Source of the DNA: Anaerolineae bacterium
GTDB taxonomy: Bacteria; Chloroflexota; Anaerolineae; Aggregatilineales; Phototrophicaceae
DNA: 64,000 bases
NCBI GenBank assembly: GCA_022823165.1
Contig: JAJDXR010000091.1
Span: 1-64,000, forward strand
Direction: 5' to 3'
The translations under genes were made by a program, and so were the position numbers. This document shows positions 11,027-59,558 of this stretch, in pieces (position 1 is the first letter of the stretch; every line of letters begins with the position of its first letter). Below the pieces are notes generated by a model that had not been told where the DNA came from, made no database searches, and was given only the letters and a program-made list of their open reading frames with translations.

Positions 11027-11050
11027 GGGTCAGCCAAGCCTGACCCCTAC
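11027..11050 (-). repeat. REP-family palindrome, reverse copy
   Basis: On the minus strand this reads GTAGGGGTCAGG then CTTGG and CTGACCC, a hairpin variant of the dispersed GTAGGGGCGA...TCGCCC repeat. It pairs with a forward copy 25 bp away, so the two form a divergent couple. Confidence 0.75.
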
Positions 11051-11075: not shown

Positions 11076-11099
11076 GTAGGGGCGAGCCTTGGCTCGCCC
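11076..11099 (+). repeat. REP-family palindrome, forward copy
   Basis: This reads GTAGGGGCGAGCC, then TTGGCTCGCCC. The GGGCGAGCC and GGCTCGCCC arms can fold into a hairpin. It is identical in type to the copy at 33134-33157. Confidence 0.85.
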
Positions 11100-17243: not shown

Positions 17244-17268
17244 GTAGGGGCGACCCGATGGGTCGCCC
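17244..17268 (+). repeat. REP palindrome, left flank of RAYT
   Basis: This reads GTAGGGGCGACCC, GAT, GGGTCGCCC, with perfect 9-bp hairpin arms (GGGCGACCC and GGGTCGCCC). It is the exact inverse of the right flank. Confidence 0.9.
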
Positions 17269-17301
17269 ACCTTGCCCAGCACTCTACAGATGGGAAACAA
17301 C

Positions 17302-17838
17302 ATGCAGTCGTTTAGATTCCGCCGTTCAATCCGTCTTCGGGACTACGATTATACGCTCGCAGGAGCATATTTTGTTACGCTTTGTACCTTAAACAGCGTA
17401 TGCATGTTCGGTGACATCGTAGACGGTCAAATGCGGCATAATGACTTGGGTACGCTTGTAGGTCGCGAATGGCAACGTACTGCGCGCGTACGCCCATCTG
17501 TCGACTTGGATGCATTCGTTGTCATGCCAAATCACATTCATGGAATCTTGTTTATCCTTGATGATTCAAATGCCTCGGGCTCATCACACTCGAGCAAGTC
17601 ATTTCCGCCGCGGTCGTCAACCCTGCAATCGGGATCGCTTGGCTCGATCATAGGGCAATTCAAGTCGACGGTCACCAGACGAGCCAGACGCCAAGCAACA
17701 ACATACTGCGGGGCGATCTGGCAACGCAATTACTACGAGCATATTATTCGAAGTTATCAGTCCTTGAACTACTTGCGCAAGTACATTGTAGAGAATCCAG
17801 CCCGGTGGTCTGATGATCGTTTATACGTCGGCTATTAG
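17302..17838 (+). CDS. REP-associated tyrosine transposase (RAYT, Y1_Tnp)
   Basis: The 178-residue protein begins MQSFRFRRSIRLRDYDYTL. The HUH metal motif is MPNHIHGIL and the catalytic tyrosine lies in WQRNYYEHIIR, both in their usual places; LGSIIGQFKSTVTRRAR is the DNA-binding region between them. I chose the ATG at 17302 because GGGAA lies 7 nt upstream; an in-frame ATG at 17290 is possible. All catalytic residues appear intact, so it may still act on the flanking REP hairpins. Confidence 0.9.
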   Translation: MQSFRFRRSIRLRDYDYTLAGAYFVTLCTLNSVCMFGDIVDGQMRHNDLGTLVGREWQRTARVRPSVDLDAFVVMPNHIHGILFILDDSNASGSSHSSKSFPPRSSTLQSGSLGSIIGQFKSTVTRRARRQATTYCGAIWQRNYYEHIIRSYQSLNYLRKYIVENPARWSDDRLYVGY

Positions 17839-17860
17839 AGTCCGCGGCTGTGATATTTGT

Positions 17861-17885
17861 GGGCGACCCATCGGGTCGCCCCTAC
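17861..17885 (-). repeat. REP palindrome, right flank of RAYT
   Basis: On the minus strand this is base-for-base identical to the left flank at 17244-17268. It begins 22 nt after the transposase stop codon. Confidence 0.9.
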
Positions 17886-19372: not shown

Positions 19373-19396
19373 CTAGGGTGACCCGGTGGGTCGCCC
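19373..19396 (+). repeat. REP-family palindrome
   Basis: This reads CTAGGGTGACCC, then GGTGGGTCGCCC, a slightly decayed member of the REP family. It lies in the gap after the GH4 gene. Confidence 0.7.
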
Positions 19397-24282: not shown

Positions 24283-24307
24283 GTAGGGGCGACCGGGTGG
24301 GTCGCCC
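24283..24307 (+). repeat. REP-family palindrome
   Basis: This reads GTAGGGGCGACC, GGGT, GGGTCGCCC. It sits between the U32-like gene and the enolase-superfamily gene, 31 nt before the latter's start codon. Its transcript could fold into a hairpin in the message. Confidence 0.85.
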
Positions 24308-33133: not shown

Positions 33134-33157
33134 GTAGGGGCGAGCCTTGGCTCGCCC
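33134..33157 (+). repeat. REP-family palindrome
   Basis: This reads GTAGGGGCGAGCC, then TTGGCTCGCCC, identical to the copy at 11076-11099. It is directly followed by ACTCTGTGTCCTCGGTG, a fragment of the second repeat family, so the two families are fused here. Confidence 0.85.
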
Positions 33158-43980: not shown

Positions 43981-45105
43981 ATGCCGCGTTTGCCTGAATT
44001 GTATCAACTGGACAATTTCATCGATACCTTCGCCCTCGGTCACTACGCGCGTGTGCTGGACGCGCTGGACCGGCGCAACGGCAATCATGTCGCCTTCAAA
44101 GTCATGCGGCCCGAGCATCTGGACCGCGATGGCGACATGCGCTGGGAGTACCGCGCCTTCGGCAATGAGGCGGACATCCTGACGCGGCTCTGGCATAGCC
44201 CCAATATCGTCAAACTCTACGACTGCGGCTTCATCTCCGACGGCGAGGAAGCGCCGCGCGATGGCGAGATCACATCGTTTCAGAGCGATGTGCGCGGATT
44301 CATCGAGTCGATGTCGCGCTTCGCCGCGGCCGGCTGGCGCCCCTACCTGGCGCTGGAGAATCTGCCGCGCCATCACAGCCTCTTCTATTTGATGAAACCT
44401 AACAGCGCCAACAGTCGCCGGCGCCTGCCCAGCGAAGAGGGCCTGGCGCTGGCGCTGCAATTCAGCGAACTGCTCAGCCTGGCGCACGCCAATAAAATCG
44501 TCTATCTCGATCACAAGCTGGAGCACGTCTATTGGGACGGCATTCACCTGAAGGTCATCGACTTCAACAGCTCGCGCGCGCTGGAAGACGACCGAACGCA
44601 ATCGCCGCAGCAATATAGCAAAGATGTGCACAATATGTGCGTCGGCGTACTCTATACCATCTTCACTGGCATGTCGCCGCAGAAAGGCTCGCTGCGCCCC
44701 CAGCCCAGCAGCCGCGACGCTGTCGAAGCCCGCTACACCGATATCCACAGCCTCGACTTCAGCATGGAGCCCAGCCTCAGCGAAGGCATTGCCGAGCTAC
44801 TGCAGCGCGGCGCCTCTGAAAGCATCGAGACGGTGCAGGAATTCATCAACGGCTTGCAGCGGGTCGCCACCCAGCACGGCTGGCAATTCTCCGATTACTA
44901 CACCAGCGCCGCCAGCAGCGAGGCGCGCATCCAGCTGCGGGCTGGCCTGGAGCGCCTGCGCCTGGGCCAGGAGAATGTGCGCGAGGCCCGCGACCTCATC
45001 CGCGAGGCGATGATCGACGACGGCATCAGCCGCGATATGGAAGAGGAATTGCGCCGGCTGGTGGTCGCGCTCAACGAGATGCTGAATCACCGCGTGGCGC
45101 CTTAG
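43981..45105 (+). CDS. Atypical protein kinase-like protein
   Basis: This 374-residue protein is a divergent Hanks-type kinase. The Lys of the VAIK motif is K40 (HVAFKVM), the alphaC Glu is E63, the catalytic loop is YLDHKLEHVYW (D177, K179, with His182 instead of Asn), and the metal Asp is in IDFNSSR (D194, DFN instead of DFG). Loss of the Asn and Gly makes activity uncertain, perhaps unusual. The C-terminal ~80 residues are helical (RLRLGQENVREARDLIREA). No transmembrane segment is present. It ends 12 nt before an MmeI-like restriction-modification gene. Confidence 0.82.
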   Translation: MPRLPELYQLDNFIDTFALGHYARVLDALDRRNGNHVAFKVMRPEHLDRDGDMRWEYRAFGNEADILTRLWHSPNIVKLYDCGFISDGEEAPRDGEITSFQSDVRGFIESMSRFAAAGWRPYLALENLPRHHSLFYLMKPNSANSRRRLPSEEGLALALQFSELLSLAHANKIVYLDHKLEHVYWDGIHLKVIDFNSSRALEDDRTQSPQQYSKDVHNMCVGVLYTIFTGMSPQKGSLRPQPSSRDAVEARYTDIHSLDFSMEPSLSEGIAELLQRGASESIETVQEFINGLQRVATQHGWQFSDYYTSAASSEARIQLRAGLERLRLGQENVREARDLIREAMIDDGISRDMEEELRRLVVALNEMLNHRVAP

Positions 45106-45645: not shown

Positions 45646-48111
45646 ATGCGCGACTGGAATGCCGCGCCGACGCGCATCGCCTATTTCCTGACTAAACTCG
45701 TATTTTGCCTCTTCGCCGAAGATGTGGGCTTGCTGCCGACCATGTCCGGCCAGCCGCAGGGAATCTTCAGCTACATTATTGAGCACTCGCGCGGCAAACC
45801 CAGCGTTTTCAAACAGTATGTTCAGAATCTCTTTGTCGCCATGAACGAAGGCGGAAACATGTTCATGCGCGACATCCCCTACTTCAACGGCGCGCTCTTC
45901 AAAGTGGTGACAGTCGAAGAACTCAAGCAGGAAGCCCTGGATGAATTGGCGACAGCGGCGAAGCTGAATTGGGCGTCGATTGAGCCCTCCATTTTCGGTA
46001 CGCTATTCGAACGCAGCCTTGACCCCAACAAACGCAGCCAGCGCGGTGCGCATTACACCTCGCGCGAGGATATTCTACTCATAGTCGAACCCGTGCTTAT
46101 GCAGCCTCTGCGTTACGCTTGGGATACCGTTCAGTTGGAAGCCGCGCCCATCCGCGAACGTTACGACAACGCGAGGACGGGCCGCGCCAAAACCAATGCG
46201 CGCAGCCAATTGCTGGCGAAGCGGGACGAAATCCTCGCGCGCGTCCGCGGGACTACCGTGCTTGACCCGGCTTGCGGCAGCGGCAACTTTCTCTATGTCT
46301 CCCTGCAGCTGCTGATGGATTTGGAGAAAGAAATTATCTATCATCCGCTTTGGGCGGGCTTGCAATTGGCGGCGCGGCAAGTGCATCCGCGCCAGATGTA
46401 CGGCATTGAAATCGATCCCATCGCCCAAGCCCTCGCCAGCATCGTGGTCTGGATCGGCTACATCCAGTGGCGCATCAACAACGGCTACGGTCAGGAGTTC
46501 GCCGAGCCGATACTGGAAGAGCTGGAAGACAATATCGTCTGCAAAGACGCGATTCTGCCGCCGGCGCAGCCCACCGCGCGCCCCCAACCCCCGGCCGGTG
46601 AAACCCGTAGGGGCGTGTCGCTGACACGCCCGCCTGACGACGCGCTGGAAACGGGCGTTTCGGCGAAACGCCCCCACACAACATCCGCGCGGGGGGTCGA
46701 ATGGCCCGCCGTCGATGTCATCGTCGGCAATCCGCCTTTCTTGGGCAATCGCAAATTGCGCCCAGAGCTAGGCGATGACTATGTGGATTCTCTTGTACAG
46801 CATTTCGAGTCTGATTTTGGTCACCATACACCAGACTTAGTTTGCTATTGGCATCAAAAGTCTTTGAATCACTTGCTAGCAGGCAAGGTCAAGAGAGTTG
46901 GTTTGCTTGCAACAAATTCTATTCGAGGCGGCACAAATCGTCATGTACTCAACAAGATCGTCGAAAAAGCGCAAATCTTCAACGCTTGGTCAGATCGAGA
47001 GTGGATTCTCGATGGCGCGGCGGTGCGCGTTTCTATGATCTGTTTCGACAATGGCGCGGAAGATGAAGTTCGGCTAGATGACATTCCTGTAAAGTCTATA
47101 TTCTCAGATTTGACGGCTGATATCGACATTACAAGCAGAACCGTGCTTGTGGAAAACCAGAGTTTATCGTTTCAAGGCGTAGTTAAACGCGGGCCATTTG
47201 ACTTAGACGCGTCAGCAGCGCAATTCATGATATTGAATGAACCAAGAAATAAAGAGGTGCTGAAACCCATTGCGAACGCAATTGACGTAACAAGGCGTTC
47301 TCGCAACACATGGATTGTTGATTTTGGTGTCGCCACTCCTGTTGAAGTAGCGCAAACGTATACCCTGCCGTTTAAGCATGTGTACGACAACGTAAGACCA
47401 ATGCGCTTAAAGACAAAACAGCGAGAATCTCGTGACTACTGGTGGTTGCATTGGAACAGTCGTCCAAGAATGCGCGAAAAGTTGGTCCCGCTAACCAGAT
47501 ATATTGTGACTCCGATAGTCTCAAAGCATCGACTCTTCGTTTGGATGTCGAAAGACATCCTTCCTGATAAGCGTCTTACAGTGTTTACCCGTGATGATGA
47601 CTATTTCCTAGGAGTGCTCCATTCCAGAGTACATGAAGCGTGGACACTGCGCACTTGTACGTGGCATGGCAAAGGCAACGATCCCCGCTACACGCCCACC
47701 ACCACCTTCGAGACATTTCCCTTCCCCTGGTCGCCCGGGCGCGAAGACCAATCCCACCCCGCCCACGTTCGCATCAGCGCCGCCGCCAAACAGCTGCACG
47801 AAGAACGCGAGGCCTGGCTTAATCCGCATACCCCTCATGACGACTGTAGGGGCGAGCCATTGGGTCGCCCGCGTCTCAAAGACCGCACCCTCACCAACCT
47901 CTACAACGCCCTGCAAGTCTGGCGTGGGCTGGACGATATCAAGACCAAACCCGCCGCCGCCGACTTCGCGCCGCGCCTGGACCAACTCCACCGCGAGCTG
48001 GACGAAGCCGTCTGCGATGCCTACGGCTGGGACTGCGCTGTGCTGGATGACAAGGAAGAGATTCTGCGCCGTCTGCTCGCCCTCAATCTGGAACGGGCCG
48101 CTTCCCAATAA
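45646..48111 (+). CDS. MmeI-like restriction-modification enzyme, methyltransferase/TRD part (split gene)
   Basis: This is the rest of the broken gene; the first internal ATG at 45646 gives 821 residues, but no ribosome site is near it. It contains the helical spacer, the SAM motif I VLDPACGSGNFLYVSLQLLMD, and the amino-methyltransferase motif IV NPPF (IVGNPPFLGNRKL), followed by a target-recognition region. Two segments look inserted: the region encoding TRRGVSLTRPPDDALETGVS, and CRGEPLGRPR near the C-terminus. Both derive from REP-type palindromes read in frame. Type IIL enzymes act as single-chain restriction-modification proteins; here restriction is probably lost and methylation may remain. 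Confidence 0.85.
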   Translation: MRDWNAAPTRIAYFLTKLVFCLFAEDVGLLPTMSGQPQGIFSYIIEHSRGKPSVFKQYVQNLFVAMNEGGNMFMRDIPYFNGALFKVVTVEELKQEALDELATAAKLNWASIEPSIFGTLFERSLDPNKRSQRGAHYTSREDILLIVEPVLMQPLRYAWDTVQLEAAPIRERYDNARTGRAKTNARSQLLAKRDEILARVRGTTVLDPACGSGNFLYVSLQLLMDLEKEIIYHPLWAGLQLAARQVHPRQMYGIEIDPIAQALASIVVWIGYIQWRINNGYGQEFAEPILEELEDNIVCKDAILPPAQPTARPQPPAGETRRGVSLTRPPDDALETGVSAKRPHTTSARGVEWPAVDVIVGNPPFLGNRKLRPELGDDYVDSLVQHFESDFGHHTPDLVCYWHQKSLNHLLAGKVKRVGLLATNSIRGGTNRHVLNKIVEKAQIFNAWSDREWILDGAAVRVSMICFDNGAEDEVRLDDIPVKSIFSDLTADIDITSRTVLVENQSLSFQGVVKRGPFDLDASAAQFMILNEPRNKEVLKPIANAIDVTRRSRNTWIVDFGVATPVEVAQTYTLPFKHVYDNVRPMRLKTKQRESRDYWWLHWNSRPRMREKLVPLTRYIVTPIVSKHRLFVWMSKDILPDKRLTVFTRDDDYFLGVLHSRVHEAWTLRTCTWHGKGNDPRYTPTTTFETFPFPWSPGREDQSHPAHVRISAAAKQLHEEREAWLNPHTPHDDCRGEPLGRPRLKDRTLTNLYNALQVWRGLDDIKTKPAAADFAPRLDQLHRELDEAVCDAYGWDCAVLDDKEEILRRLLALNLERAASQ
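46607..46631 (+). repeat. REP palindrome inside the R-M coding sequence
   Basis: This reads GTAGGGGCGTGTC, GC, TGACACGCCC. Arms GGGCGTGTC and GACACGCCC form a hairpin. The insertion keeps the reading frame. Confidence 0.85.
46653..46676 (-). repeat. REP-like palindrome inside the R-M coding sequence (inverted partner)
   Basis: On the plus strand it reads GGGCGTTTCG then GCGAAACGCCCCCA, the inverted relative of the copy 22 bp upstream. Together they form an inverted REP couple within the gene. Confidence 0.75.
47846..47870 (+). repeat. REP palindrome inside the R-M coding sequence, near 3' end
   Basis: This reads GTAGGGGCGAGCC, AT, TGGGTCGCCC, with imperfect arms. It encodes an extra CRGEPLGRPR-like segment between conserved C-terminal blocks. 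Confidence 0.82.
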
Positions 48112-48139
48112 GTATTCTCTGTGTCATTTGAATGGGCGG

Positions 48140-49276
48140 TCAGTGTCTACGCGACCCAATCGTTCCCGGCAGCGTATAGTCAGCCCGCGTAATCACCGGC
48201 TGCAGCGCCAGCAGCCGCCGCACCGTCGCCTCCATCTCCGCCGGCAGCGCTACCGTATTGCCGCGCTCGCCATCCCGCGCCAGCTTCGTGCCCGCCTGCG
48301 CATCGCTTGCAAACGCGCCGACCGCTTGCGACAGCGCCGCCTCCGGCAAGCCCAGCAGCCGCAGCAGGCTCAACAAGACAGCATCGCGCTCGCGCTGCAA
48401 GTCTTCGTAGCGGATGGCTGACAGCGCCGCGTTCCGCTGCCGCGCGTCGAGGTAGCGCTCCAGCATATACAGCCAGCCTAGCGCGCGGCCTTCCAGCCCC
48501 AGGTAGCTGCGCAGCGACGGCTGCGCCAGCCTTTCGATGTCTTCCGCCGCGCACTGATAATAGGCCGCTTGCTGCTCAATGATTTGCTCGCGGCTGTAGC
48601 GCGTGGGCGAATCGCCGCGATTGACGCGCAGACGCTGAAAAGACGCCAGCCAGTCGATGACATTGCGGTACATAAAGAGGTGCTGCGCTTCCGGCAGCGC
48701 CTCCACATAACACTCCAGCACGGCCATGGCCTGGTTGCGAAACTTGATGGCGACTTGCGCCGCCTCGCCGCAGATGGCCGGGCGGACCAGCCAGGCGACG
48801 CAAGCGCGCAGCAGGTCGCGCTGCTCGGCGCGCGGCCTTGAGCGCATGCCGATAAAGGCGGTCAGCGCGTCCGGCTCGGACAGGGAGAGCAGGCCATCGA
48901 TTTCGTTCAAGGCGCGGCTCAAGACGGTGGAGCCGCAGCGGCCGATATTGTGCAGGCAGAGCAGTTTCGGCGGCGGGGCGACCTGCTCAGCCAACTGCAG
49001 AAAGTCCGAGTAAGGCAGGGCGACCAGATATTCAGCTTGATCGAATTGCGCCTGGTACATAAAAGGCGCCGCCAGCGGGTCAACGCCGGCGGGCAGACAA
49101 GTGAATATGGCGCGCTGTTTGTCATGGTCGAGGCAGTAGAGGCTGTAGCGGGGATCGTCGATGAGCGAGTCGGCGTTGAGGCTGCCGCCGTGGGCCAGCT
49201 CAAAATCAGCCATCGAGGTCAGTACGCCCATATGCTCTCGATGTCGGGAGAGAATCCGTAGTTTGCTCGCGCCCAT
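48140..49276 (-). CDS. Sulfotransferase-like protein
   Basis: This 378-residue protein has a P-loop-like 5'-phosphosulfate-binding motif at residues 108-119 (LHNIGRCGSTVL) and the FKFRNQ- and RNVIDWLASFQRLRVN-type segments that bind the 3'-phosphate of PAPS in sulfotransferases. The acceptor is unknown. Its ATG overlaps the upstream gene's stop (TAATG), so it is the last gene of a three-gene operon with a conserved unknown and an enoyl-CoA hydratase. Confidence 0.78.
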   Translation of the reverse strand: MGASKLRILSRHREHMGVLTSMADFELAHGGSLNADSLIDDPRYSLYCLDHDKQRAIFTCLPAGVDPLAAPFMYQAQFDQAEYLVALPYSDFLQLAEQVAPPPKLLCLHNIGRCGSTVLSRALNEIDGLLSLSEPDALTAFIGMRSRPRAEQRDLLRACVAWLVRPAICGEAAQVAIKFRNQAMAVLECYVEALPEAQHLFMYRNVIDWLASFQRLRVNRGDSPTRYSREQIIEQQAAYYQCAAEDIERLAQPSLRSYLGLEGRALGWLYMLERYLDARQRNAALSAIRYEDLQRERDAVLLSLLRLLGLPEAALSQAVGAFASDAQAGTKLARDGERGNTVALPAEMEATVRRLLALQPVITRADYTLPGTIGSRRH

Positions 49277-55398: not shown

Positions 55399-55541
55399 GT
55401 GGTCAGCTTTTCAGGACCACTACAGATAGAAAAACTGCGAGGCGCATATTCCTGTTGCGCGCCTGTCGCCCCTACACGATTTGCGCGCTTCTGCTAGGAT
55501 TGCGCCGTTAACTTAACCACAGATACCCAAGCGAGCATACG

Positions 55542-59487: not shown

Positions 59488-59512
59488 GTAGGGGCGACCT
59501 ATCAGGTCGCCC
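59488..59512 (+). repeat. REP palindrome
   Basis: This reads GTAGGGGCGACCT, AT, CAGGTCGCCC. It forms a divergent couple with the inverted copy 21 bp downstream. Confidence 0.85.
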
Positions 59513-59533
59513 GAATTTGCAAGTCGAGTTTTC

Positions 59534-59558
59534 GGGCGACCCGCCGGGTCGCCCCTAC
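59534..59558 (-). repeat. REP palindrome, inverted partner
   Basis: On the plus strand it reads GGGCGACCC, GCC, GGGTCGCCCCTAC. It is directly followed by the CTCTGTG-type repeat at 59563. Confidence 0.85.

Follow-up and report, generated by a model that had tools for sequence, protein, structure and literature searches.

REPtrons, as presented in excerpts of PMC2817692 (Nunvar 2010) and PMC3116915 (Bertels and Rainey 2011), consist of a Y1/HUH transposase gene (RAYT) between two inverted REPs, accompanied by dispersed REPs and REPINs; the RAYT evolves fast, and its position is fixed among orthologs. Subclass 2.4 of these transposases (Quentin 2018, PMC6006769; group 4 of Bertels) is characterized by the motifs NH[IFV]H, WQ and YIxNNP, and in its REPs the stem typically begins with three G-C pairs. 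Work on groups 2 and 3 reports a critical role of the loop where palindromes are perfect, and a role of GTAG in cleavage (PMC8266576), and RAYT loss or switch accounts for genomes that are rich in REPs and lack a RAYT (PMC3686654). The locus analyzed here shares the listed features of REPtrons and is classed as a RAYT/TnpA_REP REPtron, with subclass 2.4 as the nearest subclass, in a Chloroflexota host. It lies in a window of 64,000 nucleotides (the whole stretch of DNA that was analyzed; part of a 68-kb contig, 60% G+C) of a genome of 4.1 Mb in 94 contigs.

The window RAYT gene and the REPs around it

The following features were located in the window:

17302..17838, + strand: RAYT (TnpA_REP) gene, Y1/HUH transposase of 178 aa, assigned from motifs, family match and predicted fold
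17244..17270, + strand: upstream flanking REP GTAGGGGCGACCCGATGGGTCGCCCAC, foot GTAG, stem GGGCGACCC/GGGTCGCCC, loop GAT
17859..17885, − strand: downstream flanking REP, exact 27-nt copy of the upstream REP, foot outward
11027..11050, − strand: variant REP with head GTAGGGGTC, variant form GTAGGGGTCAGGC
11076..11099, + strand: dispersed REP of type AGCC-TT, the commonest in the genome, perfect 9-bp stem
19373..19396, + strand: decayed REP with head CTAGGGTGA, head degraded, CTAGGGTGACCC
24283..24307, + strand: dispersed REP, one inner pair mismatch
33134..33157, + strand: dispersed REP of type AGCC-TT, perfect 9-bp stem
46607..46677, no strand: REPIN pairing a TGTC-type REP with an unlike one of TTTC type, feet outward, stems at 46607 and 46653 perfect over 9 bp, within an MmeI-like methyltransferase ORF
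47846..47870, + strand: REP in the same MmeI-like ORF, one inner pair mismatch
48135-48156, + strand: 22-nt element consisting of 3 nt, a 4-bp stem, loop and stem
55467..55475, − strand: half copy, REP head alone
59488..59558, no strand: REPIN of unlike REPs (ACCT and ACCC types), 71 bp, feet outward, stems at 59488 and 59534 perfect over 9 bp

The two flanks of the RAYT gene are inverted and lie about 640 bp apart with both GTAG feet outward, and their stem base, GTAG-GGG/CCC, provides three G-C pairs after the foot. The initial annotation had described the gene as bracketed by a perfect inverted REP couple of 25 bp, which is confirmed except that the match extends over 27 nt; the places where it saw "at least eleven" relatives are indeed REPs, but they number ten plus a half copy. 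The head GTAGGGGCG is found 11 times in the window, where 0.48 copies are expected (none of 100 shuffles reached 11). One head, at 44338 on the − strand, has no hairpin and was taken as chance, and an Rfam search of the window returned 0 matches. The MmeI-like ORF (45646-48111; Pfam MmeI_Mtase, MmeI_hel and MmeI_TRD) contains its REPIN and the additional REP in frame and is translated through them.

The RAYT protein, for which an in-frame TTG at 17272 is an alternative start giving 188 aa, contains PNHIH (N77-H80), W140 Q141, and Y161 within YIVENP. All 17 aligned relatives keep N77, H78, H80, W140, Q141, Y161, N165 and P166 unchanged; in a set of 41 sequences, H78, H80 and N165 are invariant, and N77, Y161 and P166 are kept at 90% or more. 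The sole NCBIfam match is NF047646, the REP-associated tyrosine transposase (E = 1.7 × 10−16), at 60.4 bits versus a curated cut-off of 80, and the match to Pfam Y1_Tnp (20.3 bits) is likewise under the curated cut-off of 23. A profile of RAYTs (A2, drawn from 80 named loci of many phyla and leaving out L179, L193 and L194, which have stop codons, as well as 37 others not chosen) matches PDB 4er8, the E. coli TnpA_REP (E = 1.8 × 10−6). The predicted model (pLDDT 83.6) superimposes on 4er8 with Z 12.1 (126 residues, rmsd 3.3) and on IS608 TnpA with Z 12.4 (103 residues, rmsd 2.3), and the nearest named records are Chloroflexi and Anaerolineae MAGs. The earlier assignment to the RAYT and REP families is supported by the NF047646 and 4er8 matches, the predicted fold and the invariant motifs; PNHIH, WQ and Y161-NP are retained in relatives.

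The genome has two RAYT copies in all. The second (C13:4350-4847) is 47% identical to that of the window and sits between its own matched REP pair, which has the same head and a different upper stem and loop. The window copy lies between putative genes, named from ORF reading, for an M3-type peptidase and a GH4-type glycosidase. Of 30 loci surveyed, the 9 that extend to the peptidase gene were informative; among these, a RAYT is present between the two genes only in the window genome (G000) and in G077, the other 7 having different sequence with small ORFs there. Between G000 and G077, the RAYTs are 65% identical and the neighbours 87 and 92.5%; both REPs are unchanged, and the adjoining spacer is hardly alignable. 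Because dN/dS of the RAYT is 0.17 and its dS is 1.49 compared to 0.64 and 0.67 for the neighbours (2.2-2.3-fold), the RAYT is, judging from these rates, under constraint, but its history is not just the one its neighbours have had; simple vertical inheritance at a uniform rate does not fit.

Repeats across the genome and the family

In the 4.1-Mb genome, GTAGGGGCG occurs in 388 copies compared to 64 of the reversed control pattern. Hairpins were analyzed in a sample of 816 kb, which consists of the window and 40 other stretches and covers 20% of the genome; it was picked by hand from long contigs and contigs with listed matches and is non-random. Of the 61 heads in this sample, 45 are followed by a CGCCC tail after 10 or 11 nt, and all other gaps from 4 to 21 nt account for 3 in total. 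With pairing not required beforehand, all four inner pairs match in 36 of the 45 tailed heads, and inner pairs exchange freely (at the second pair, C-G 20 times and G-C 19 times), whereas the reversed head occurs 12 times in the sample and in no case has a stem. The compensated stem variation reported earlier for the window is therefore confirmed, and the statement that conservation beside a fixed head lies in the hairpin rather than in the sequence is correct. REPs located at most 200 bp apart form seven pairs with feet outward (68-190 bp), two tandem pairs and none with feet inward, nine further close pairs being one hairpin read on both strands. The same arm in both hairpins was seen in 0 of the 7 dispersed REPINs. 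Among the matches listed, literature text matching GTAGGGGCG concerns only other subjects, and none of that on REPINs or RAYTs in Chloroflexi is about the present system.

Across 98 genomes of the family (58 with a RAYT at E ≤ 10−5, 40 without), the median ratio of head count to control is 2.46 in genomes with a RAYT and 0.50 in those without (p = 6.6 × 10−9), and inside the genus it is 6.8 (27 genomes) vs. 2.4 (7 genomes; p = 8 × 10−4); the genomes are related by descent, so that the p values given here and below are optimistic. A lack of enrichment of the repeat in RAYT-bearing relatives, which had been set as a refuting outcome, did not occur. For REP copies in relatives lacking a RAYT, the other outcome named against the association, the answer is divided: 34 of the 40 RAYT-less genomes do not exceed twice the control, but 6 do with no RAYT detected (G066, G071, G074, G078, G045 and G046), with head counts of 574 in G046, 344 in G045 and 202 in G066. 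Of the 58 RAYT genomes, 12 are not enriched (ratio below 1). In G063 (8.5 Mb, same genus), 11 RAYT matches were found and GTAGGGGCG is unenriched (22 vs. 42 for the control); one RAYT flank there reads GTAGGGGCACGG, perhaps another REP class.

Exact hairpin types were counted in the 34 genomes of the genus, with copies at RAYT genes subtracted. Dispersed copies are more numerous in genomes with the cognate RAYT than in other genomes for CTTGCC (p = 0.008), ATTC (p = 0.016), CGAG (p = 0.013) and TTTC (p = 0.009), and the excess is less clear for AGCC-TT (p = 0.083); 0 of 20,000 permutations reached the combined rank sum over the five types. In the 816-kb sample, hairpins identical to the flanks of either resident RAYT are found only at the RAYTs, the upper stems and loops of the window's dispersed REPs are unlike the RAYT flanks, and the commonest dispersed type, AGCC-TT (114 copies), flanks neither resident RAYT. 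Other genomes, too, have types that are abundant with no cognate RAYT found (TTTC, 133 copies in G083; CGAG, 51 in G067), and G066, where no RAYT was detected, has 41 copies of AGCC-TT. In the CTTGCC lineage, 0 or 1 dispersed exact copy is present in four of five species, the flanks being matched in all. The earlier view that source and products are both visible here has partial support, in that RAYT presence tracks enrichment, but is not supported for the window: its dispersed REPs have other tips, in the sample the flank types occur only at RAYTs, and the main type flanks no resident RAYT. The type counts fit the model of orthoswitch and loss, as given in the part of PMC3686654 consulted, better than a simple source-and-product picture.

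The genus also has a second element of 22 nt. Its sequence CWGTGTCTACGCG is present in 116 copies in the window genome and in 31 of the 34 genomes of the genus, with a maximum of 244, compared to 3 or fewer of the reversed control in any of the 34; in addition to the window copy, it was read at L080, L087, L090, L094 and L282-L321. In 49 of 59 distinct copies read, the fixed 11-nt loop, [A/T]GTGTCTACGC, is enclosed by a stem of 4 bp or more; seven different 4-nt stems occur, and the stem covaries freely. Exact excision of 22 nt (the 3 nt, both stem arms and the loop) yields an 18-mer present uninterrupted elsewhere in the sequences analyzed in 17 of the 49, excision of 23 nt in 2 of 49, and the other 38 boundaries tried in none; joined stems of at least 8 bp result from 14 of 49 excisions vs. 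2 of 690 random cuts, and the restored 9-bp REP stems include AGCC-TT, TTTC-GTT, ACTC-GGT and the type of the window RAYT itself. From the restored 18-mers and rejoined stems it is therefore concluded that the unit appears to be precisely inserted one base before the REP loop, and in other repeats. No target duplication was seen among the copies read, Rfam gave 0 matches (20 of 40 loci searched), and literature text matches to GTGTCTACGCG concern unrelated subjects only; the nearest analogue is SDR5, a module that in cyanobacteria is inserted in HIP1 and is mentioned in an excerpt of PMC4390886. If mobile, the 22-nt element would represent a precise insertion of very small size to which no enzyme has been assigned.

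Matched flanks at fixed loci and their interpretation

Next to the 71 RAYT genes for which flanks were analyzed, GTAG hairpins with feet outward number 53 upstream and 46 downstream, and those with feet inward 5 and 3. At the 40 loci with hairpins on both flanks (19 one-flank and 12 no-flank loci were dropped), the arms are identical on both sides in 32 (shuffled mean 4.6, 0 of 10,000 as high) and the arm plus loop in 21 (shuffled mean 1.8, 0 of 10,000 as high). On the RAYT tree, hairpin type (20 labels) requires 29 changes compared to a shuffled mean of 52 (0 of 200 as low), an agreement that is favoured by near-copies of RAYTs. The proposed check of RAYT type against REP head showed that the head is constant and that it is the upper stem and loop that co-vary with RAYT lineage. 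At 80 named loci spread over many phyla, 57 flank hairpins were detected, 48 of which begin with GTAGGGGC; at 42 of the 80 no REP was found.

Many RAYTs of the genus occupy a few common syntenic loci, as judged from flanking genes among the loci listed. At one of these, locus A, between genes read as encoding a solute-binding protein and a permease, the orthologs have hairpins of seven types (ATTC-TGT, ACTC-TGT, AGCC-TT, TTGC-TGT, CTTGCC-TT, ACCC-TT and ACAC-TT). The flanks match in 9 of 10 representatives (mean of 1.6 by shuffling, 0 of 20,000 as high), with three repeated CTTGCC rows collapsed to one and one-flank rows excluded. With their fixed head and switching upper stem and loop, these syntenic loci extend the "orthoswitch" of Nunvar 2013 to a new group.

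Among 30 instances of locus A, a RAYT or a remnant is present in 16 and none in 13, and one (L256) is cut by a contig end. The RAYT-less slots span 77-173 bp in seven cases and are longer or unmeasured in six; the seven short slots, judged by eye, do not align to occupied flanks, and no clean empty site of the unit was found at the window locus or locus A. The window genome has no RAYT at locus A, and its sole exact ATTC-TGT REP lies there (C1:9213-9237; L262 1413-1437), 64 bp before the permease gene; in G087, G086 and G084, the distance for the downstream flank is 65 bp. This lone REP is probably a RAYT footprint, although it could have arisen by chance.

Two further observations concern damaged or missing RAYTs. 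The gene has a stop codon or is truncated at L179 (G069:C5), L193, L194, L260 (G084) and L273 (G081), and at L260 and L273 the flank REPs are still present. At the RAYT-less loci L257, L263, L270, L278, L279 and L281, a different inverted repeat of the CCCCTCCC...GGGAGGGG type, an additional palindromic family of the genus, precedes the permease gene.

Very probably, the unit is a REPtron in which a domesticated Y1/HUH RAYT is held between two matched REPs, in effect a REPIN whose spacer is the gene. By analogy with groups 2 and 3, as treated in excerpts of PMC8266576, the RAYT would bind the folded, single-stranded REP; GTAG would position cleavage, with selectivity residing in the loop and upper stem; Y161 would attack at a CT-like dinucleotide; and REP doublets would be mobilised in trans, the RAYT gene itself staying in place. 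As a RAYT lineage drifts, both flanks would shift along with it (orthoswitch), and older REP types would persist as remnants, which may explain why the most abundant type in the genome is found at neither RAYT. Since it is the loop and upper stem that vary by lineage, while foot and stem base are constant, we infer a division of labour in which the foot and base would be common to all lineages and the tip specific to each. Points against the REPtron reading are the family scores below the curated cut-offs, the exceptions to enrichment in both directions, the scarcity of dispersed CTTGCC copies, the abundance of types with no cognate RAYT found, the raised dS of the window RAYT and the failure to find a clean empty site.

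Flank matching might instead result from DNA repair, that is, template switching or gene conversion between arms or inverted copies, rather than from recognition. The flanks at one locus are inverted and about 640 bp apart, and dispersed copies, too, pair perfectly in 36 of 45 cases, but the REPINs, which are closer (68-190 bp), are unlike in 7 of 7, whereas RAYT flanks are alike in 32 of 40, and hairpin type follows the RAYT tree; we regard this explanation as unlikely. A serious possibility, if short of probable, is that whole RAYT-REP alleles are swapped between species by homologous recombination in common flanking genes, the RAYT and its two flanks being replaced together, a process compatible with the REPtron reading. 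The raised dS of the window RAYT is in its favour, as are the neighbours at loci A and B, whose identity ranges from about 60 to 97% by species pair with upstream and downstream genes in disagreement, and locus B, where two RAYT clades occur with two hairpin types. However, swapping leaves the origin of the matched types unexplained, and intermediates with mixed flanks exist (ACAC/AGCC at L160, ACAC/ACCC at L036).

An ordinary IS200/IS605 insertion sequence would have a similar fold, and yet this identity is scarcely credible for a gene with an inverted REP pair with outward feet, no near-identical mobile copies (the two are 47% identical), loci fixed in the genus and NF047646 as the only NCBIfam match. 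That the dispersed REPs are host elements, such as terminators or RNA stabilisers, spreading or persisting without a RAYT would agree with the REP-rich RAYT-less genomes (G046, G045 and G066, with the counts given above) and with the main type of the window genome having no cognate RAYT; it is very unlikely in view of the strong RAYT association over 98 genomes and the REPIN orientation (7 outward vs. 0 inward). Conceivably, the matched flanks serve the RAYT as a private address and not as the template of dispersed REPs; the RAYT would rewrite both flanks jointly, or select their joint change, while its locus stays fixed, perhaps to regulate itself, and REP spread would be a loose by-product. 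The CTTGCC lineage fits this reading, which is on the whole unlikely, as it combines near-absence of dispersed copies in 4 of 5 species with matched flanks in all.

Comparison with described systems

T. roseum belongs to the Chloroflexota. Its GTAG-23 is the only case from this phylum noticed in the available part of Di Nocera 2013 (PMC3733652), whose GTAG families resemble the present repeats in their GTAG-tagged hairpins, head-to-head dimers, REPtrons and intragenic REPs. Subclass 2.4, as far as covered in the excerpt of PMC6006769, shares with the present unit NHIH, WQ, GTAG with three G-C base pairs, and the location of REPs inside genes of some relatives, here at L058-L061; it differs in having YIxNNP where YIVENP is found here, and a median length of 194 aa compared to 178 aa. 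Like the orthogroups and orthoswitches of Nunvar 2013 (PMC3686654), the loci analyzed here have syntenic RAYTs with differing REP classes, and REPs that are abundant without a cognate RAYT; the cases in the portion consulted are from Pseudomonas and Stenotrophomonas, whereas here the host is a member of the Chloroflexota, the head stays the same, and switching is confined to the upper stem and loop. More than 12 orthologous RAYT alleles are available at locus A, where the upper stem comes in seven types and the head does not vary; they form a natural series in which to look for the protein residues that read the hairpin tip, in RAYTs outside groups 2 and 3, the ones studied in vitro in the part of PMC8266576 consulted. 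Compared to the REPtrons in the excerpts of PMC2817692 and PMC3116915, the present ones are distinguished by the Chloroflexota host, the GTAGGGGCG head, and the occurrence of several RAYT lineages that share one head within one genome.
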